Origin: Alistipes sp.
GTDB lineage: Bacteria; Bacteroidota; Bacteroidia; Bacteroidales; Rikenellaceae
NCBI GenBank assembly: GCA_017555105.1
Contig: JAFZHB010000005.1
Coordinates: forward strand, 1 to 64,000
Reading direction: 5' to 3'
DNA: 64,000 nt
In this document: positions 4,559-13,108 of the stretch, piece by piece
Layout of the letters: each line of letters begins with the position of its first letter
Numbering within the stretch: position 1 is the stretch's first letter
Translations under genes and position numbers: made by a program
Notes under the pieces: model-generated
Told to the model about the DNA's origin: nothing
The model's database searches: none
The model's input: only the letters and a program-made list of their open reading frames with translations

Positions 4559-4960
4559 TTATTTTAGGTAGAGCTCCCACCCCCGCTCCACAGCCATCCA
4601 ATCCGCCTTGCTTCCATTCTCTACCTGCGAGATGGCCGCCACCAGCGGGATCATCGTCGAGCGATCCTGCGGATCAATCTCCTCGCTCGGGGCGATGCCG
4701 GTCAGCGAGGTGACGCTACGGATGTAGCGTGCCGTATCGTTCTCCGACGGGGGTGCCCAGCGCGCAATCATCTCACTCAGCGTGCGAAGGTGGTGCTTGC
4801 GCCAATAGGTACGCAACACCACAAAGATTGCGCGATAGCCCCACTCGTCCGCTTCGAACTGCTTGAAGGCGGGATCGGTCGAGGGCAGCACCTCCCCACG
4901 AAATCGGCAGACTGAGCGGCGGATATTGCCCGGATTGTGATTACGCAGCCCCCGACTCAT
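4559..4960 (-). CDS. Phage structural protein P5-like muramidase / lysis enzyme
   Basis: Predicted peptidoglycan-degrading enzyme of phage origin. The ATG at 4958-4960 gives 133 residues beginning MSRGLRNHNPGNIRRS. The RGxRNxNPGNIR opening is the signature of phage PRD1 P5-like lytic transglycosylase domains. Further family-like segments are FEADEWGYRAI and ENDTARYIRSV. It is the last gene of the cassette and overlaps the holin gene by 20 bases, so holin and lysis enzyme are translationally coupled. An upstream in-frame ATG would add 21 residues lying inside the holin gene, and I prefer the shorter start because the motif begins there. Confidence 0.8.
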   Translation of the reverse strand: MSRGLRNHNPGNIRRSVCRFRGEVLPSTDPAFKQFEADEWGYRAIFVVLRTYWRKHHLRTLSEMIARWAPPSENDTARYIRSVTSLTGIAPSEEIDPQDRSTMIPLVAAISQVENGSKADWMAVERGWELYLK

Positions 4961-5378
4961 CTCCCACCTGTTTTTGGATTCGACGATGCACATAGCGACG
5001 CAGCCAACGAAAGAGCGGAGCATCGCTCAGCTGCGCAGCATTCTCCAGAAACGACCACAGCTCCACGCCGCAGGCAAAGCCTGCCAGATAGCGAGCGAGG
5101 TGGCAATCGACGAAGGTCAGCACATAGTGTTCGAGCAGCCACCCCATACCGAGCATCGTGACCACAAGGGCCGCCTTCACGATGGTATGCCAGGCGCGAC
5201 AGCTCTCGAAGTACCATCGACGCCCCTCACGGCGCGCCGTGACACGATCGGCTAGCACACCACTCACAAAGTCCACTGCAATGAAGAGCAGCGAGCAGAT
5301 CACCAGTGGGGCAATCGGCGCAAAGAGCCCCAGCGTTGCTGCTATAAGCCCGCTAAAAAATCTGTACAAAGCCTCCAT
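4941..5378 (-). CDS. Phage holin family protein
   Basis: Predicted inner-membrane pore former that lets the lysis enzyme reach peptidoglycan. Of 145 residues, two or three hydrophobic segments are clear: about 8-27, 28-42 (VICSLLFIAVDFVSGVLAD) and 68-85. SLLFIAVDFVSGVLADR resembles the Asp-rich membrane motif of the phi-29/phage-4 holin families. The C-terminus is basic. It overlaps the upstream structural gene by 26 bases and the downstream lysis gene by 20, giving a compact lysis module. Confidence 0.8.
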   Translation of the reverse strand: MEALYRFFSGLIAATLGLFAPIAPLVICSLLFIAVDFVSGVLADRVTARREGRRWYFESCRAWHTIVKAALVVTMLGMGWLLEHYVLTFVDCHLARYLAGFACGVELWSFLENAAQLSDAPLFRWLRRYVHRRIQKQVGDESGAA

Positions 5379-5826
5379 CGGTCATGCAACGGTGTAAGAT
5401 GTTCTCATGCAGATCATACTCGGGGAAGGCCTCCGCATGCTCATCGAGGTAGTCGGAGGCGCGGCGCAGGAGGATCGAAACCTCGTGGCGCAGGTTGGTA
5501 TGCAGGCGGTTAAGCGCCGCCTGGTCGGCCGGCGAGCCGTTGTCAGCCTTCGGCGAGAGGGTTCCGAGCGGGGTGGTGCGCAGGTCGAGGCGGGATTGTA
5601 TCAACATGCGGGTAGCGAGAGCAAGCGCCGTGGTCAGGTAGTCGCTCACAAAATCGGCATAGCGCCCTTCGAGAAGCGCCTCGTGCATGGCAGCACCCAC
5701 CACCGGGCGCAGCCATGCCGACTCTGCGGCTGCGATATCGGCCACCGAGATTGCTGTGGCGGCGAGGGGTTCAAGCCCCGCAAAAGCGTGGCGTTGAACC
5801 TGTTGTGGAGTGATTAGGGTCTTCAT
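5353..5826 (-). CDS. Phage head-tail adaptor-like hypothetical protein
   Basis: No function is certain. The protein has 157 residues from the ATG at 5824-5826 and is mainly helical (AAAESAWLRPVVGAAMHEAL, TTALALATRMLIQSRLDL). It sits directly after the portal gene, where head-completion or adaptor proteins usually lie. Its size and composition resemble the DUF6712-type proteins of Bacteroidota prophages, but this is a weak comparison from memory. The start overlaps the portal stop (TGATG), and the 3' end overlaps the holin start by 26 bases. Confidence 0.5.
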   Translation of the reverse strand: MKTLITPQQVQRHAFAGLEPLAATAISVADIAAAESAWLRPVVGAAMHEALLEGRYADFVSDYLTTALALATRMLIQSRLDLRTTPLGTLSPKADNGSPADQAALNRLHTNLRHEVSILLRRASDYLDEHAEAFPEYDLHENILHRCMTDGGFVQIF

Positions 5827-7058
5827 CAATCGATACTTTTAAGGTTATACTTCGCAATCTGCGAGAGGAAGAGTTGCTGATCGGGATCCTCCGGATCGTA
5901 CTCCAAGCCATCGGCCTTGCGCGCCTCCCATACCCGCATGTAGATCGGTTTGGAGCGTGTCGGCGGACGGTTGATGATCTGCAACGAGGAGCAATCGAGG
6001 CCGAGCACCGTGTGCAAGAGTTCACGCAGGGGTTCGAGCAGCTCCTCCTGCTCGCTCAAGATCACCGTGTTGAGCGCAATCTCATACTCTTGCAGGATGC
6101 GCTCCGAGGAGAATCCCGAGGCATAATCGAGACCACTCAGCGTGCGAAACCAGGAGTGGGCTATCACGATATCCGAGACAGCCTGCTCGTGCAGGGCCTG
6201 CCAGTCGCCCTCGTTCTGTGCCGTGATGGGGATGAAACGCGAGTGGTCGTTCTCCGCCCCGTCGCGGATCACAAAGAGGACCTGTCCGGGATTACCGCCG
6301 AACTTCTGCTCGGCCAGGCGGGCGATGCGCTCCGCCTCGGCATCGCTATCCACGGTCGAGTCGAGCATCATCACACCTGAGAGTTGGAACGAGTTGTCGA
6401 GACGGGCAATGTTCCAGCGATCGGTCTTGTAGGCGATGGCCGAGACATTTAGGCCGGCGATGTAGGTCGGTATGCCGTAGTGACGAAACATCGGCTCATA
6501 CTCCTTGTAGTGAATCATGGCGCGCAGCGTGCCATCCTCCTGCTCCTCAAAGCGAGGGTAGAGGGGTAGGACGCGCGCCTCTTGCTCACGAAACTGATGC
6601 CAATCGTGGTGAAGGAGGATGTGCTCCGAGTCGCGCGCGAGGCGGCAACGCGAGGCATCCTGATGGTAGAGCGCAAGGAAGCTGTGGGAGGGGTCTGTGA
6701 CCACCTCGAGAAAGGCGTTTCCGAAGAGGGACTTGTCGAGTGCTAACTTATGCAGCAGGCTGCGCAGCGACTCCCCCTCGCCATTGACCTGCGCAATGAA
6801 GTGGTTCAGCAACGGCTCGTGGTGGCTGTCGCAGATAAAACCCTTGCCCGAGATGTAGTCCGCCTTGTCGTTGATGATGCGACGATGGGTCGTCGATCGG
6901 CGAGCCATCAGCGCAAGCGCTTCGGGCAGGAGGTTATCCTCACCCCAACGCCAGAATCGGCGATCTTCGCATCGGGCAGCGCCAGCCAGGTAGGGGTCTG
7001 AACCTTTATTGCTCAGCGCCACGGCGCAGGGTTTGACGGTTGTTTGCTCTTTGTTCAT
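5826..7058 (-). CDS. Phage portal protein
   Basis: Predicted dodecameric vertex protein through which DNA enters a capsid. The ATG at 7056-7058 gives 410 residues. The N-terminal half has the portal-like pattern RIINDKADYISGKGF followed by a helical stretch (LLHKLALDKSLFGNAFLEVV). The central beta-rich part ends in TDRWNIARLDNSFQLSGVMM. The C-terminal helices (SERILQEYEIALNTVILSEQ, LREL) resemble portal stem and wing helices. It lies between the capsid and adaptor-like genes, the canonical neighbourhood. No terminase gene precedes or follows it, which is unusual. Confidence 0.75.
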   Translation of the reverse strand: MNKEQTTVKPCAVALSNKGSDPYLAGAARCEDRRFWRWGEDNLLPEALALMARRSTTHRRIINDKADYISGKGFICDSHHEPLLNHFIAQVNGEGESLRSLLHKLALDKSLFGNAFLEVVTDPSHSFLALYHQDASRCRLARDSEHILLHHDWHQFREQEARVLPLYPRFEEQEDGTLRAMIHYKEYEPMFRHYGIPTYIAGLNVSAIAYKTDRWNIARLDNSFQLSGVMMLDSTVDSDAEAERIARLAEQKFGGNPGQVLFVIRDGAENDHSRFIPITAQNEGDWQALHEQAVSDIVIAHSWFRTLSGLDYASGFSSERILQEYEIALNTVILSEQEELLEPLRELLHTVLGLDCSSLQIINRPPTRSKPIYMRVWEARKADGLEYDPEDPDQQLFLSQIAKYNLKSID

Positions 7059-7115
7059 GGGTGAAAAGATAAGGGAGGTGCAGAGCGCACCCCACACCTC
7101 CCGCGTGAAACAAAA

Positions 7116-8093
7116 TTAATCGAGGTAAGCGTAGTAGAGCTGGTTCTCGTCGAGGATCTCGCAACCGGCCATGAAGACGGCGCGCTGACGATTCTCCATC
7201 TCATCGGGATTGTACCACATGCGCACCTCGTTGCCGGGCATATCGGCCGTATTGACCGCCAAAACCAGGTTGCGGCGATCCGTGAAGAGGCAGAACGACT
7301 GGTGCAGCGTGGTCGCGGGGAGGTAGGCATTCACCTTCACATCCACCACCGGGATGCCGTGGTACGAGAGGGTCTGGTGACCATCGGTCGTGCCGACGAA
7401 GGAGGCCTCCACGCCCATCGAGTCGAGGTACTTCTCATAGAGGCGGTAGATGTCCGAGGTGACAAAGTAGACGAGCTGACCCTCATCCTTCATCACACGC
7501 ATGCGCTCCGAAGCGTTCTCCCAAAGATTATCGAAGAGCTTGACCACATAGGAGGGATCCTCCAAATCCTGCATCGAGTAGACATCGTAGTCGATCGACT
7601 CCTCATTGACGCACTCCTTGAGGATCTTCAAGAAGCCGTTGAAGGAGTTGTAACCCGCCGAGAGGGAGCTGTCGCCAATCCACATCGTCGTGCGGATATT
7701 CTCGGCAATGGCGCGCTTGAAGAGCTCGGTCTCGACCTGCTCGAGCTGCGTGCCCGTCAGGTCCTCCATGTTTACATCGGGTGAGGCCGTGATCTGCTCA
7801 TAGACCAGCGAGAAGTAGTCGGCTGCCGAGAAGGCCATCTCGGCCTTGATGCGCTGCATATCGATCGTCTTCTGGTACTTCTTCGAGGGTGCGCCACCCA
7901 CCCAGCCGTTCGACGAGAATTTGTGCAGCAGGTTGCGCTGACCGTCCCAATACTGCACGGTGGTCGGCAGGGGCATGTTGTAGAGAATACGCACGCCGAG
8001 CTCTTCGGCCGAGGGGCCCTTCAACATCGGGCGGAAAAAGATACGATCAACATCGTTACCGGTGTACTGCTTTGCGGTTTCCAAATAGTTCAT
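7116..8093 (-). CDS. Phage major capsid protein
   Basis: Predicted capsid subunit. The ATG at 8091-8093 gives 325 residues, starting MNYLETAKQYTGNDVDRIFF. The length suits an HK97-fold capsid protein. Two features fit: a helical segment (LEQVETELFKRAIAENIRTT) before a central domain with FVTSDIYRLYEKYL and YHGIPVVDVKVNAY, and a C-terminal strand-rich part (VFMAGCEILDENQLYYAYL). The assignment rests mainly on position between a ClpP-like prohead protease and the portal. An upstream in-frame start would add 45 Thr/Asn/Pro-rich residues and is unlikely. Confidence 0.7.
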   Translation of the reverse strand: MNYLETAKQYTGNDVDRIFFRPMLKGPSAEELGVRILYNMPLPTTVQYWDGQRNLLHKFSSNGWVGGAPSKKYQKTIDMQRIKAEMAFSAADYFSLVYEQITASPDVNMEDLTGTQLEQVETELFKRAIAENIRTTMWIGDSSLSAGYNSFNGFLKILKECVNEESIDYDVYSMQDLEDPSYVVKLFDNLWENASERMRVMKDEGQLVYFVTSDIYRLYEKYLDSMGVEASFVGTTDGHQTLSYHGIPVVDVKVNAYLPATTLHQSFCLFTDRRNLVLAVNTADMPGNEVRMWYNPDEMENRQRAVFMAGCEILDENQLYYAYLD

Positions 8094-8154
8094 GGTTGTT
8101 TCTGTTTTAAGGTTTAAGGGAAAAATGGTTGTGTTAGGATGTGTGTTGTGTGGG

Positions 8155-9027
8155 TTAGCGGTTGCGTTTGAACTGCTTGACATCTTCGGCATAGGCGCGT
8201 TCGTTGGCCGAGAGGCGGGGTTCACCAATCGAGGGATCCTCCACTGGCTCTACGCGGGTCGGTTGCACCCCCTGCTGACCGCTGACAATGGCGGCCACGC
8301 TGCGGGCGTGGGCATAGCTCTCGTTGGCAGGATGGAGAATGTTGTGATCCTCCGGGAGCTCCTCCTCGCGCTGCAATCCGATCGAGTGCATCAGGCGACG
8401 CCAGCCGCGAGCGATGTTCTCGGTGAGGGGCGCTGTGGTCGGCTCCTCGCCAATGAGGCGATCGGCCAAACCTGCCTGAATAGCCTCCTCGGGTGAGAGC
8501 CAACGGCCGTTGCCGTTGTTTTCGGCCATCAGGGTGCGGAACTCCTCCGCCTCGCGCCCCGAGCGTGCGGCATAGAGGGCTGCCAGGCGCTCATCCGTGG
8601 CATTCAGCAGGGCAATCTGCTCGCCGAGCGCTGCAGCATTGCCCTCGGTGGAGCAGGTGGCCTGATGGATCAGGTAGAGGGCATTGGCCGAGAGCTCACG
8701 ACACCCCTCCGAGGCCGCCTGGGCGATGATCGTAGCGGCCGAGGCTGTGTAGCCATAGCAGCGGGTCGTAATGCGACCTCCGATCTGACGCAGCGCATCG
8801 TGGATCAGCAGGGCATCGTTGACATCGCCTCCCATCGAGCGGATCGTCACAATCACCTCCGAGGCATCCACCTCGGCGATGCGAGCCACCGCCTCACGGA
8901 AGCGTTCGTAGGTCGCCACCCGCTGATCGGGGTGGTCGAACTGCCACTCCTCGGGCACTCCGATCGTCCCCTCAATCTCGATGTGGCACACATCCGCCAC
9001 ATTTTCGATGTGAATCTGGGTTTTCAT
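8155..9027 (-). CDS. ClpP-like prohead protease with C-terminal extension
   Basis: Predicted serine protease that trims capsid or scaffold during head maturation. The ATG at 9025-9027 gives 290 residues. Residues 1-185 form a ClpP/crotonase-fold domain. RSMGGDVNDALLIHDAL is the oxyanion-loop motif, CYGYTASAATIIAQ carries the nucleophile Ser96, and NALYLIHQATCS carries His121. Residues about 190-290 are polar, helical and not ClpP-like, and could act as a scaffold. It lies 61 bases ahead of the capsid gene, the normal protease-capsid order. Cellular ClpP is unlikely given the divergent sequence and the neighbours. Confidence 0.8.
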   Translation of the reverse strand: MKTQIHIENVADVCHIEIEGTIGVPEEWQFDHPDQRVATYERFREAVARIAEVDASEVIVTIRSMGGDVNDALLIHDALRQIGGRITTRCYGYTASAATIIAQAASEGCRELSANALYLIHQATCSTEGNAAALGEQIALLNATDERLAALYAARSGREAEEFRTLMAENNGNGRWLSPEEAIQAGLADRLIGEEPTTAPLTENIARGWRRLMHSIGLQREEELPEDHNILHPANESYAHARSVAAIVSGQQGVQPTRVEPVEDPSIGEPRLSANERAYAEDVKQFKRNR

Positions 9028-9047
9028 CTCTTGAATTTTGAACAGTT

Positions 9048-9296
9048 TTAAGGTTTTTGATAAAAGCATTGGCGCACCTTCTCATACGAGCAGCAGAACT
9101 CCTCCGCCGTCCACTGCATCGCATCACAGCGCCGTGCACCTTGACGCTGAAACTCAATAATCCGCTCCCGCATAGCCATCGCCTCGACCTTGCGCAGATC
9201 GATCAGCCCCCTCTCGATCAGGCGTTGAGCGGCCGCCTTGGAGCACGCTCCGCTGCGCTCTATGATGGCACAGAGTTGCTTTTCATACCGCGTCAT
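9048..9296 (-). CDS. Small hypothetical protein of the phage-derived cassette
   Basis: I do not recognise this 82-residue protein. It is basic and helical, with LCAIIERSGACSKAAAQRLI and a second helix pair around EEFCCSYEKVRQCFYQ. This could form a helix-turn-helix, so DNA or RNA binding is possible. It begins 4 bases inside the preceding tail-like gene and ends 20 bases before the protease gene. A link to packaging, such as a small-terminase-like role, is only a guess, and size and motif do not establish it. Confidence 0.55.
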   Translation of the reverse strand: MTRYEKQLCAIIERSGACSKAAAQRLIERGLIDLRKVEAMAMRERIIEFQRQGARRCDAMQWTAEEFCCSYEKVRQCFYQKP

Positions 9297-11650
9297 CGCT
9301 CATCGCAACGGTTAAATCGACACCGCACCTCGCCCGTCGTCGGGTCGTAGTGTCCCACCTTGCTCAGCGTGCCGAGGAGCTCGCCCTCATCGGTTCGGAG
9401 CAGGTAGCGAGTACGCAGATCAGTCCCTCCGTTCTCCACAAGCAGGAGGCTCTCATAGTCGCTCGGCGCGAGGCGCAGGGTGAGCTCAACCGCCCCACAG
9501 AGGCTCTCATGGAGCAGCTGCCGATCGTAGAAGCGGTGCAGACCCTCCACCCCGTCGCGATCCTCAAAGCAGAGTGTTCGCGGCGCACAGTCACCATCCC
9601 CGGCGAAGTGGAAGGCCGCCAGCGGATAGCGGTTTTCGGTGGCTGGATAGCCCCAATGCTCCCCCTCGGGCAGGGAGTGCATACCAATCAGGCTGACAAT
9701 ACGCGGAGTCAGCTGCTCGCTCTCCCCCTCGGTGGCATCACGGTCACCCACCTCCAAGAGCAGCGCCGAGGGGGCATTGCGATAGTGTCCGGCAACACTG
9801 AACGAGGCTGCAAAGAGGGGATTGCGACGACACGCTTCACCCTGGAGCGCAGCGGCACTCGGGGTGGTGTAACTCCATGCACCAAACTCCTCACCCTGCT
9901 GCTCCTCCCAGCGCTTCACCACACCATCGCTTGCCAAGTAGCACCAACGGCGCAGCTCGTGCTGCTCGACAGCCGTATCGATCAGCTGGATCGGCTCTCC
10001 CAGATCGACCTTCTCGCGCCAATCGACCACTTCATCGCGATAGAAGGCATCGTAGGGCTCGATGCGCACCGTCTTGCTCGCCTCATCGGTGTAGAAGCGC
10101 AGGTTGAAGAGGTGAGCCAGGGCTTGCAGGAGCTCGATCTGACGCATCCCGTGTTGCAGGATGTCGGCCAGGAAGAGTGTCGATCCAAAACCGCCACCGG
10201 CATAGAAGCGCGGGGTCAAGGTGGTCTCCCGATGGAGCGTGAGGCGCATGCCCTCCTCCGCACCATAGAAGTAGAGCTGATCGAAACGCACCGTTTGTCC
10301 TGCCGCAACCTCTCGCGAGGCGGTGCTGACACGCAGGTGAACGGCCGTCTCGCCTCGCTCCTCGATGTAGCCGTCGTAGAGTGCCCAATCACCCTCATAG
10401 GGAATCCAATAACCGCCCTGCAGGTAGTCGAGCGTGGGGTTTTGCAACTCTCCCGAGGCGGGCGAGGTGACCAACTCAGCACGCTCGGAGAGGAGTTTCC
10501 ATGTGGTCGCCACGCCATCGATCTCGCTCCGCAAGCGGTAGGTGTTGCCCTCCGTATGATCGAAGACAATCGCTCGATAGGTGTAGTTGTTCGAGAGGTT
10601 GTTACGGCGATCCGTGTAGCGATTCGCCAGGCGGAACTTTAGATCGCTTCCCGCCCCGAGATAGACCGAATCGAACCCCGTGAGGTAGTGGCGCGAGGCT
10701 ATGCGATGCTCGGTCGTGTAGTGCAGGTCGTACTCGAAACCCACCGTCACGGCGGTCGTCGGCGTAAAGCTGATCGCACCATCGGCCTCGAGCTTGAAAC
10801 ATTGCCCATTGTTGTAGAGGGTGTAGCAGGGCTCACCCACCTCATTGAGTGCCGCAGGAGAGGCGCTCTCGACGATGTTACCCAGCGAATAAGCCGCTGA
10901 GTAGGGCGAGGCGTAAACGCGCCCGAGGTAGTTCGCCGCTGCCGAGGCGGTGGTCAGACGACCCGCCAAGAAACCCATACGGCTCTTGAGGGCGGTGGTA
11001 TCGCGATGGGCATAAGCGCCACTCATATAGAGCGAGCGGAAAAAGTCACTCTGCATGAAGTCGCTCTGCACCGTATAGCCCGCATCGGCAAAGATCTGGC
11101 GTACCAGCCGGTCGATCTGCAAGAAGGGGTGATAGTCATCGACCGAGAGGAGGCGTTCGGCTGGAAGCAGGTCGGTAGGTTGGCTCTGCGCCGGGTAGCT
11201 GTCGCGGTGGATGGGCAGGAACTTCACAAAGCCCCCCTCTTCCCAGCTCTCGACCACGGTGGTCGGACTTAGGGTTGCCATGTAGAGGAGACCTAACTCC
11301 GAGAGCTTGCGTTGCGCCGCCTCCGACGCCCAACGCTCACCCCCTTCGCGCAACTCGATCGTGTAACCCTTGGCCGAAGAGGCCAATAATCGCACGCTTC
11401 CCTGCATCAACACCGCCCCCTCGTGGGTCAGCACCGCCGCGTGCACCACCTCATTGAAACGGATGCCCGTCTCGGGATCGCGACCTCGGCCAAAGAGTTG
11501 ATCATTGGTCGAAGTTGCCGGTACGACGAGCTGCAACGAACGGCCACTGCGCGCCGCATTTGGATCGGCAAAACGGCTGCAGTCGTAGGGCGGAATGTGG
11601 ATCTTCTCCAGCGGAAGATCACACCGCTGAGCATCGATTATTAACTCCAT
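9293..11650 (-). CDS. Large phage tail/baseplate-like structural protein
   Basis: At 785 residues this is the largest cassette gene. It has no signal peptide or membrane segment and is beta-rich. Two segments resemble large structural proteins of Bacteroidota siphophages as I remember them: FLQIDRLVRQIFADAGYTVQ, and ILQHGMRQIELLQALAHLFN followed by KTVRIEPYDAFY and DWREKVDLGEP. Those proteins are probably tail-tip or baseplate components. The gene overlaps the upstream 320-residue gene by 10 bases and the downstream 82-residue gene by 4. No tape-measure or tail-tube gene was found near it. A structural role is likely; the exact place in a particle is inference. Confidence 0.6.
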   Translation of the reverse strand: MELIIDAQRCDLPLEKIHIPPYDCSRFADPNAARSGRSLQLVVPATSTNDQLFGRGRDPETGIRFNEVVHAAVLTHEGAVLMQGSVRLLASSAKGYTIELREGGERWASEAAQRKLSELGLLYMATLSPTTVVESWEEGGFVKFLPIHRDSYPAQSQPTDLLPAERLLSVDDYHPFLQIDRLVRQIFADAGYTVQSDFMQSDFFRSLYMSGAYAHRDTTALKSRMGFLAGRLTTASAAANYLGRVYASPYSAAYSLGNIVESASPAALNEVGEPCYTLYNNGQCFKLEADGAISFTPTTAVTVGFEYDLHYTTEHRIASRHYLTGFDSVYLGAGSDLKFRLANRYTDRRNNLSNNYTYRAIVFDHTEGNTYRLRSEIDGVATTWKLLSERAELVTSPASGELQNPTLDYLQGGYWIPYEGDWALYDGYIEERGETAVHLRVSTASREVAAGQTVRFDQLYFYGAEEGMRLTLHRETTLTPRFYAGGGFGSTLFLADILQHGMRQIELLQALAHLFNLRFYTDEASKTVRIEPYDAFYRDEVVDWREKVDLGEPIQLIDTAVEQHELRRWCYLASDGVVKRWEEQQGEEFGAWSYTTPSAAALQGEACRRNPLFAASFSVAGHYRNAPSALLLEVGDRDATEGESEQLTPRIVSLIGMHSLPEGEHWGYPATENRYPLAAFHFAGDGDCAPRTLCFEDRDGVEGLHRFYDRQLLHESLCGAVELTLRLAPSDYESLLLVENGGTDLRTRYLLRTDEGELLGTLSKVGHYDPTTGEVRCRFNRCDER

Positions 11651-12603
11651 AAGCGACTGTTTTTCTGGTTAGTACGAATTACAACCGAGAGCTTGCGCAT
11701 CACGCCGTGGCGAAGGATCTCACACTCCTCGGTGAGCAAGTCTACGGCCTCGTAACCCGCAGCTGTGACGCGCCACACCTGCTCGGCATAGAGCAATTCG
11801 GAGAGCGCACGCATCATCTGCGCTGTTTCGTAGGCCGAGTGGAGCTGCCAGCGCTCCTCCACCTCGACCGAGGTCAGCGAGTAACCTGCAGCACCGCAGG
11901 CACGCTCCTTATCCACCAGGAGGCGAATTGCCTCCACAATCGGGAAGGTGTAGTGCTCGATCGAGCCCGCCGACGAGCGCCAAGCCAGCGTCACAGCCCC
12001 CTCATTGGGCGGAGCTACCGTGTAGTGTAGCTGACCGATCCCCTCCACCGTGAGGGTGATCTGCTCGGCCTCGGGATAATCGGCCGCCACGAGGCGGAAA
12101 CACTGCAGGCCCTGCTCGGGCGAGGTGAACTCCTCGCTGACGATGGCGGTGGGTGACTCGGCCGTCACCGTAATCTTGCGTGGATCGACAGCCACAAAAC
12201 TCACTTCATCGCACGCTTCGGGTGCAATCAGCCGACTCATCGGCAGGGTGGAGCAGATCGCAGGCAGGGTTACGGAGGTCCAGGCGAAGAGGATGGTGCG
12301 CGCAGCGGAGGTTACACGCTCCGATCCACTGATCGCTTCGACGCGCATCGTGAGGGTTCGGTCGGCGGAGGCGACAAAACCGGTGGATGCCACGGCGGGA
12401 GTGAAGGCTGCGGCGCGACGCACAATCGGGGCGAGATCGACCGTGCAGGAGCCGTTGCCTATGAGGCGTTTGGTGGCGAGCAGACGCCCTTCGTCGGTGT
12501 AGATGTTCAGTTGGACACGGCCGTCGGTGAGCCCCGCAAGGGTGTAGTTTAAGGGGGCATCAAGGGCCGCAAATTGGGTAGGAATGGAGGTAAATTGAAG
12601 CAT
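11641..12603 (-). CDS. Phage structural protein, first gene of the cassette
   Basis: The 320-residue protein has alternating beta strands and no signal peptide. TLAWRSSAGSIEHYTFPIVE resembles the 'W-x-x-G-x-x-x-Y-x-F' segment common in structural proteins of Bacteroidota phages. The C-terminus contains a short helical part (ETAQMMRALSELLYAEQVW). It is the promoter-proximal gene of the cassette, about 170 bases after a TATCTTTG promoter, and overlaps the 785-residue gene by 10 bases. These two proteins probably act together. The function is not established by any catalytic motif. Confidence 0.55.
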   Translation of the reverse strand: MLQFTSIPTQFAALDAPLNYTLAGLTDGRVQLNIYTDEGRLLATKRLIGNGSCTVDLAPIVRRAAAFTPAVASTGFVASADRTLTMRVEAISGSERVTSAARTILFAWTSVTLPAICSTLPMSRLIAPEACDEVSFVAVDPRKITVTAESPTAIVSEEFTSPEQGLQCFRLVAADYPEAEQITLTVEGIGQLHYTVAPPNEGAVTLAWRSSAGSIEHYTFPIVEAIRLLVDKERACGAAGYSLTSVEVEERWQLHSAYETAQMMRALSELLYAEQVWRVTAAGYEAVDLLTEECEILRHGVMRKLSVVIRTNQKNSRLWS

Positions 12604-12782: not shown

Positions 12783-12814
12783 CAAAGATACGATCGGCGA
12801 TACCCCCTTGTCAA
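12783..12814 (-). promoter_or_regulatory. Promoter of the phage-derived cassette
   Basis: On the minus strand, TTG (12814-12812), 21 bases, then TATCTTTG (12790-12783) fits the Bacteroidota consensus. The transcript should start near 12777 and have a leader of about 170 bases before the gene starting at 12603. Confidence 0.65.
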
Positions 12815-12907: not shown

Positions 12908-12991
12908 ATGGACGATGGTAATAGTTGCACGCATAGTAGCAGCATCGTACGCCGTTACGATGCCGAGCCTCTATGGGATGCGCGGCGCTGA
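12908..12991 (+). CDS. Possible 27-codon upstream frame in the corA leader
   Basis: ATG at 12908-12910 opens 27 codons (MDDGNSCTHSSSIVRRYDAE then PLWDARR) ending TGA at 12989-12991. It begins about 30 bases after the predicted start of the corA-side transcript and could be a leader peptide. No clear ribosome-binding site is seen, and coding cannot be shown from the sequence alone. Confidence 0.2.
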   Translation: MDDGNSCTHSSSIVRRYDAEPLWDARR

Positions 12992-13046
12992 TCTTCTTCA
13001 CGTCGCCTCGTCGTCTATTTTCTCCAATCAGAAGCAACAGTCCCTT

Positions 13047-13088
13047 AAAAAATGCTGGGACACGGGTCGCAAATACGAACCTGTGCCC
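13047..13088 (-). terminator. Minus-strand terminator-like hairpin ahead of corA
   Basis: GGGACACGGGT (13057-13067) pairs with ACCTGTGCCC (13079-13088), with one bulged A and one G-U pair. Read on the minus strand the stem is followed by AGCATTTTTT, the form of an intrinsic terminator. On the plus strand the same stem would sit in the corA leader. Confidence 0.5.
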
Positions 13089-13108
13089 AATCCCGGCTGA
13101 AGAGGTTA

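Follow-up and report, generated by a model that had tools for sequence, protein, structure and literature searches.

The window analysed here is the 64,000 nucleotides at positions 1 to 64,000 of contig JAFZHB010000005.1 from an Alistipes sp. genome (assembly GCA_017555105.1; family Rikenellaceae, Bacteroidota). It carries a cassette of nine phage-type genes, g1 to g9, at positions 4559-12603 of the minus strand. Together with an unlinked locus that encodes a large terminase, this cassette appears to form a domesticated, vertically inherited, phage-derived packaging system for DNA, spread over two loci of the Rikenellaceae chromosome and working in the manner of a gene transfer agent (GTA); we put the probability of this reading at roughly two in three. 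The evidence consists of the homology and co-conservation of the genes, the purifying selection on them, their intact catalytic sites, an inheritance that is mostly vertical and the unlinked position of the loci. An earlier note on this DNA, made from the letters of the window, had suggested an intact, domesticated, GTA-like particle system, a suggestion that the comparison with relatives supports, the cassette occupying mostly one conserved locus.

Conservation of the cassette in the Rikenellaceae

Of 72 genomes of the genus, 70 have the portal protein (g6); the window's own genome, which is among them, is 86% complete, and all the others reach at least 90%. In the Rikenellaceae as a whole the portal occurs in 114 of 120 genomes and in 14 of 17 genera. 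An initial sample gave 34 of 36 other genomes of the genus as against one of 24 genomes from other families, the latter with a weak match (27% identity). For the comparison of gene content, the best 80 of 236 related loci by portal were kept, so that the presence of a portal among them follows by construction. Subsets of these served for the clustering of extra genes (68), the promoter scan (66 upstream regions, the window included), the coverage table (58) and the neighbour count (54).

All six core genes, encoding the tail-associated proteins g1 and g2, the protease, the capsid, the portal and the DUF6712 protein, are intact in 56 of the 58 well-covered loci. Taken singly, g1, capsid and portal are intact in all 58, g2 and DUF6712 in 57 and the protease in 56; the exceptions are L017, where the protease is partial, and L022, which has a trace only of g2 together with partial protease and DUF6712 genes. 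The endolysin is intact in 51 of the loci and absent from 7, and the holin is intact in 49 and absent from 9. The g3 model overlaps the protease in some members, and its counts were therefore left unused; a figure of 37 of 58 loci with all nine genes is unreliable. The upstream neighbour, a corA homologue, is common to 45 of the 54 loci with enough sequence (the names corA, mqnA, tsaD and groEL are those that we presume to apply). The block stands mostly at one locus in relatives, a point that the earlier note had proposed to check, and the cassette is not a mobile element.

The ratio of nonsynonymous to synonymous substitution rates (dN/dS), another check that had been proposed, was computed by the Nei-Gojobori method over the 30 closest portal pairs with dS between 0.05 and 2; the pairs share members and are not independent. 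The calculation covered eight genes, leaving out g3 and two optional genes described below. Median values range from 0.10 for the portal (30 pairs) through 0.17 for both protease and holin, 0.21 for the capsid, 0.23 for DUF6712, 0.26 for g2 (26 pairs) and 0.27 for the endolysin to 0.37 for g1 (23 pairs). The cassette genes are under purifying selection. Of the 94 loci tried, 85 gave a protease match; 84 of them keep the catalytic Ser and His residues, and the other has a gap there.

The two genomes of the genus without a portal are G100, which has no cassette gene beside the expected neighbour, and G115, which has lost capsid, portal and DUF6712 from the stretch that separates protease and holin. 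The protease frame of G115 (L213:12825-13724) ends in the apparent end of the DUF6712 protein, and the terminase locus of this genome is retained. The one-contig genome G104 carries an IS110-family transposase gene (Pfam) between g1 and g2 (L202:14446-15525). An element that varies between strains, or broken genes in relatives, either of which would have indicated an ordinary or decaying prophage, are thus not seen as a rule, with G100, G115, L022 and G104 as the exceptions.

Other Alistipes genomes contain two optional genes, one of about 134 codons before g1 and one of about 160 codons between capsid and portal, each found in 27 of the 58 covered loci but not in the other 31; the window has neither. 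The ~160-aa gene matches (1e-16) a protein located between capsid and portal on L118, an integrase-bearing contig, and its product aligns at low identity with a 171-amino-acid (aa) protein of the prophage contig L119, described below. The ~134-aa gene occupies the position of a 130-aa gene of the prophage; the profile did not prefer that gene, so that homology is by position only. The labels "tail tube" and "tail completion" for these two genes are guesses.

The unlinked terminase and its phage lineage

The observation that the block has no packaging motor stands for the window and fails for the genome. Neither a phrog_38 terminase nor a PF00589 integrase occurs in C2:1-64000, the window in its own genome (G000), tyrosine recombinases being the only integrases searched for; a terminase of the matching lineage lies on a separate contig. 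At its locus (G000:C19:2748-5424), among housekeeping genes, a 223-aa XRE-S24 protein is followed by a divergent 95-aa protein without a family and a 476-aa large terminase, and this trio recurs in each of the eight terminase loci compared. The 223-aa protein combines HTH_19 and Peptidase_S24 domains and matches the phrog_4 repressor at 8e-32, which marks it as CI/LexA-like. Among 21 repressor sequences, some of them distant homologues, the Ala and Gly of the cleavage site are kept in 17 and 20 and the Ser and Lys in 18 and 19, respectively, a pattern consistent with control by self-cleavage.

A phrog_38 search detected the terminase in 40 of 41 genomes of the genus, the window's own included, mostly with one match each, and a protein query detected it in 114 of the 120 family genomes. 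Portal and terminase occur together in 112 of these 120 and are both missing from four (G123, G124, G133, G138), leaving four discordant genomes. Two of these, G108 and G110, have a portal without a terminase, the repressor of G110 standing at a contig end; the other two are G100 and G115. The Walker A (GKS) and Walker B (DD) motifs are invariant in 52 terminases from 48 genomes (G020, G024, G063 and G065 being represented twice each), as are the nuclease-site residues D317, D320, D324, E373, D449 and D452; the neighbouring D323 is Asp in 43 of the 52. The terminase is under selection for function. The terminase of G097 is cut by a contig end. In G145 (G145:C3:18471-19979) and G159 (G159:C31:6249-7766) the match is broken in two within a single longer open frame (of 734 and 718 aa, respectively), as if something had been inserted in frame.

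Where the two loci lie on one contig in Alistipes, 2.0 Mb separate them in G104 and 2.6 Mb in G067, or, by the opposite arc of a circle, 1.4 and 1.2 Mb; in G122 the distance is at least ~0.22 Mb even if the contig is circular. The trees of the two loci largely agree. Portal and terminase trees of the 35 genomes with both sequences have 20 of 32 splits in common and no conflicting pairs at a support of 0.9, and their patristic distances correlate at r = 0.92, a value reached in none of 1000 shuffles. Against a host tree of tsaD and groEL for the 30 genomes with host markers, r is 0.88 for the portal and 0.95 for the terminase, again with none of 1000 shuffles reaching either value. The pattern fits mostly vertical descent with possible rare exchange.

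A phage with homologues of both loci is represented in the same genus. Genome G006 has a second portal, 49% identical, inside a prophage (L122/L119) in which one reads, in this order, an integrase (PF00589, 3e-24), a reverse transcriptase, a small terminase subunit (TerS; PF03592), a large terminase subunit (phrog_38) and two small genes. There follow homologues of g1 and g2, a tape measure (phrog_167, 1e-5) and an 82-aa frame, then protease, capsid, the 171-aa protein, portal, DUF6712 and holin. Direct comparison with L119 gave 1e-11 for g1 and 5e-23 for g2, and g3 matches the 82-aa frame just after the tape measure at 1.7e-6. The prophage terminase is 57% identical to the unlinked terminase, which is of the same phage lineage as the cassette. 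The earlier note had considered the gene order unusual for a phage. This view is not upheld: since the prophage has the equivalent order, the block has the order native to this type of phage, less the tape measure. At L122:13638-16581 the reverse-transcriptase gene of the prophage (PF00078) follows two open reading frames (ORFs) with similar C-terminal ends, an arrangement that looks like a diversity-generating retroelement.

In other genera the two loci can be linked (L164, L165, L166 and L168). On L168 the repressor, 95-aa gene and terminase lie 3.7 kb upstream of the cassette. On L164 and L165, two small genes, terminase, protease, capsid, portal and DUF6712 form a short cluster among chromosomal genes, and g1 and g2 were not found within the 19.9 kb read. 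The two small genes (88 and 131 aa) are TerS-like by position only, the best PHROG matches being phrog_645 at 0.019 and none, respectively. On L167 the gene before the terminase matches the TerS family phrog_309 at positions 202-284 of 319 only, that is, in its C-terminal part, and no helix-turn-helix was found in it; loss of the DNA-binding part of TerS would fit packaging without a phage start site, as reported for FpGTA of Faecalibacterium (PMC12946183). The protease is shortened, with capsid and portal whole, on L172 (5841-6107), L167 (2450-2794) and L171 (4583-4906), all from one other genus of the family, and on the IMG/VR contig L117 (6998-7264). The remainder on L172 is 88 aa from the C-terminus, and such remainders suggest that in the genus of L167, L171 and L172 a scaffold function may stay when proteolysis is lost. 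Capsid assembly often needs the groES-groEL chaperonin. The groES-groEL genes lie between cassette and terminase locus in G157 (L167:9582-11517), and groEL lies about 5 kb from the portal of G122, possibly by chance.

Layout and promoter of the cassette

The nine genes of the cassette are tightly packed, as the earlier note had described, with no internal stops. Successive genes overlap by 10 nt (g1/g2), 4 nt (g2/g3), 22 nt (g3/g4), 4 nt (g6/g7), 26 nt (g7/g8) and 83 nt (g8/g9), with gaps of 55 nt between g4 and g5 and 54 nt between g5 and g6. The G+C content of about 0.57-0.61 is similar to that of the adjoining kilobases, which bears out the host-like composition noted before. All the following coordinates are on the minus strand. 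The tail-associated proteins g1 (11641..12603, 320 aa) and g2 (9293..11650, 785 aa) have homologues of 307 aa near the L119 tape measure and of 884 aa before it, respectively. The small protein g3 (9048..9296, 82 aa) has a conserved CSYEKVR..YxK end and divergent homologues on L119 and at the matching place in other loci. No convincing family match was obtained for g1, g2 or g3 in the protein-family scans. Profiles of g1 and g2, and capsid and terminase as single sequences, gave no matches to solved structures.

The head genes were identified by profile. The ClpP-type head maturation protease g4 (8155..9069, 304 aa) matches Pfam at 3e-25 and phrog_94 at 4e-37, a later ATG at 9027 being a possible alternative start. 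The major capsid protein g5 (7116..8093, ~325 aa) has a weak match to phrog_1623 (1e-6); its profile family matches the L119 capsid at 2e-121, and the latter matches phrog_1623 at 2e-15. The portal protein g6 (5826..7058, ~410 aa) matches phrog_11226 at 4e-19, with Pfam Phage_portal just under its cut-off and a PBSX portal match likewise under the threshold. The product of g7 (5353..5829; Pfam DUF6712, 5e-11) is head-tail adaptor-like by position. Lysis functions are represented by the holin g8 (4941..5378; Phage_holin_4_1, 1.4e-8) and the P5-like lysis enzyme, or endolysin, g9 (4559..5023; phrog_873, 8.8e-46).

A likely cassette promoter, TTGACAAGGGGGTAT-N9-TATCTTTG, lies at 12783..12814 on the minus strand, in a motif conserved upstream of g1, and we take it to be of the Bacteroidota -33/-7 type. 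The pattern TTGACAA-N14-18-TAnnTTTG occurs upstream of g1 in 53 of the 66 regions, in 24 of them as TTGACAAGGGGGTA, and in none of 50 Markov-shuffled sets. The genes of this locus are probably transcribed from one promoter. At the terminase locus of the window's genome a palindrome, TTCAATAATTGAA (L126:3474-3486), lies directly upstream of the -7 element in the promoter of the terminase, and the pattern TTCAA-N1-5-TTGAA occurs in three of eight terminase loci; the palindrome is a possible repressor site.

The flanking ORFs, annotated over the first 20 kb of the window, look like ordinary chromosomal genes. A 61-aa ORF at 12915-13100 on the plus strand is similar to the two ends of a longer MqnA-like gene, which in many relatives lies between corA and g1, and looks like its shrunken remnant.

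Proposed mechanism, rival explanations and known systems

Under the proposed mechanism, the cassette would make the protease, capsid, portal, adaptor, two tail-associated proteins, holin and lysis enzyme, and the second locus would supply the XRE-S24 repressor, the 95-aa protein and the large terminase. A stress signal would relieve repression in some cells; the terminase would dock on the portal and fill the capsid with host DNA, no phage packaging site being needed; holin and lysis enzyme would release the particles, which would deliver DNA via a very short or unconventional tail. A more specific version holds that this is the first GTA family of the Bacteroidota, acquired at about the base of the Rikenellaceae; its terminase would stand apart from the capsid genes under a CI/LexA-like repressor, the tape measure and, in the clade of the window, a tail-tube-like gene would have been discarded, and tail-less or very short-tailed particles would deliver the DNA. 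We regard this version as evenly balanced between right and wrong.

Several points weigh against a GTA-like system. Particle formation, random host-DNA cargo, delivery and co-regulation are what we infer from its genes. No operator common to both loci was found when k-mers, inverted repeats and promoters were compared, A/T-rich matches being all that emerged, so that co-regulation keeps this standing. No tape measure was recognised in the covered cassette loci. One phage tape measure used as a query gave no match in 11 of 13 genomes, a single-sequence search being insensitive. Its two matches are not explained by the cassette system, one being in G006, the source of the query, and the other a separate 27% match in G104; the particle may be tail-less or very short-tailed, or may rely on a protein not recognised as a tape measure. 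The window's clade lacks the possible tail-tube gene. TerS was not recognised in Alistipes cassettes (no match in 58 of 58 with a one-sequence profile). Of the 114 family genomes with a portal, 14 were reported to have a stop within its aligned stretch; the locus was read in four of these (G120, G121, G136 and G156), and there the portal ORF is whole. G158 has its portal in two pieces. Among the terminases, that of G120 is split into two ORFs, that of G066 lacks its middle, and those of G145 and G159 are matched in two pieces; as G100 and G115 retain the terminase without capsid genes, it may serve some other purpose. The trees of the 30 genomes show six strongly supported conflicts: two between portal and terminase, three between portal and host and one between terminase and host, five of them involving other genera and the sixth the place of the window's own genome.

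Some of these points would also suit a domesticated capsid and packaging system that is kept for another use, such as phage interference or stress lysis with DNA release, and whose particles are never infectious. The unrecognised tape measure, the retention of the phage-type ~160-aa and ~134-aa genes in 27 of 58 loci each with their loss in the window, and the lack of the Rikenellaceae among the GTA-like packagers named in the available text of a gut survey (PMC12946183) speak for it. We nevertheless consider it rather unlikely, as the tail-associated g1 and g2 are intact in 58 and 57 of the 58 loci and the ATPase and nuclease sites of the terminase are invariant. That cassette and solo terminase are independent domestications with separate functions would agree with their unlinked position in the window's genome, the terminases of G100 and G115, the missing common operator and the two portal-terminase conflicts. 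We give this little credence, because the loci are linked on L164, L165, L166 and L168, their occurrence is discordant in only four of 120 genomes (112 with both, four with neither), both are homologous to one prophage genome and their trees agree overall.

Least credible of all is a decaying prophage remnant, or a satellite borrowing the terminase of another phage, the latter a possibility raised in the earlier note. The window does lack terminase and integrase, and broken cases exist (the deletion in G115, the loss in G100, L022 and the transposase gene in G104). On the other side stand the intact core genes in 56 of 58 loci, the constant upstream neighbour, purifying selection, the system's own unlinked terminase and its mostly vertical inheritance. 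A prophage was rejected as a candidate on the absence of PF00589 from the window and the presence of the portal in 70 of 72 genus genomes (attachment, or att, sites were not searched). A helper-dependent satellite was rejected on the unlinked terminase in 114 of 120 genomes and mostly vertical inheritance, with near-universal presence and no adjoining tyrosine integrase pointing the same way.

PMC9662315 defines GTAs by six features. The system shows two of them: endogenisation, often in several loci, with its two loci among housekeeping genes and no tyrosine integrase in the window, and vertical inheritance with co-diversification, by the correlations of portal and terminase with the host tree, the conflicts given above notwithstanding. 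Of a third, caudoviricete-derived proteins that form caudovirion-like particles, the derivation is seen in the sequence, and the particles are proposed. On a fourth, a genome that the head cannot fully package, the observation is that the loci are separated by at least 0.22-1.4 Mb on single contigs (G122, G067, G104). Encapsidation of mostly random host DNA, for which the gut survey does not name the Rikenellaceae, and delivery to other cells are predictions of the proposed mechanism. By its sequence, the system is thus a candidate member that would work like a GTA. As in RcGTA and other classified GTAs (PMC9662315), it is caudoviricete-derived, fully endogenised, mostly vertically inherited and spread over several loci, as is often the case in these elements. 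RcGTA differs in its 49-nm tail (PMC9662315), whereas no tape measure is recognised in the Alistipes system, the phage ancestry of which, unlike that of RcGTA, is a Bacteroidota lineage. Among phages, the G006 prophage has the same gene order, with 57% identity in the terminase and 49% in the portal, and differs by its integrase and tape measure; Bacteroides phage B40-8 has 46% identity in the terminase and differs by its annotated replication genes.

The closest published system that we found is FpGTA of Faecalibacterium, which its authors present as the first of its kind from the microbiome of the human gut. It is encoded by two unlinked operons; its capsid-like particles measure ~40 nm, and the fragments that they package are 8.4-8.9 kb long (PMC12946183). 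Both systems belong to human-gut anaerobes and have two unlinked loci, capsid, portal, terminase and lysis genes, no identified tails and a possible TerS without an obvious DNA-binding domain (PMC12946183). FpGTA comes from another phylum and has terminase, portal and capsid in one operon, with baseplate, fibre and lysis genes as the second locus, whereas in Alistipes capsid, portal and lysis genes form one locus and the terminase lies elsewhere, beside a repressor. Moreover, particles and packaged DNA have been demonstrated for FpGTA (PMC12946183), whereas those of Alistipes are proposed. A further point against the GTA-like reading comes from the gut survey in the same paper, which in its available text names the Rikenellaceae once, as abundant in total DNA, and not among GTA-like packagers; the relevant section attributes 23 of 25 GTA-like events, none to the Rikenellaceae (PMC12946183). 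This counts against frequent activity of the system in those three donors. In titles and abstract openings of the literature found on Alistipes, Rikenellaceae, Bacteroidetes and Bacteroidales, and in passages of PMC9723715, PMC7947584 and PMC12946183, this system does not appear to be described, and no GTA of the Bacteroidota was found.

A search restricted to the surroundings of the capsid genes can miss the packaging motor of such a system. Cassette genes make up most of seven IMG/VR contigs (L111-L117) and of GenBank MT838736.1 (L319); as these records are filed as virus or phage contigs, virus catalogues may count the cassette as a free phage. Alistipes is a common gut genus. If the GTA-like reading is true, the family-wide particle system would be a gene-exchange route for the Bacteroidota that is undescribed in the literature found. 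It would also add an independent case to the short list of phage domestications and would make it testable whether GTAs need a tail.

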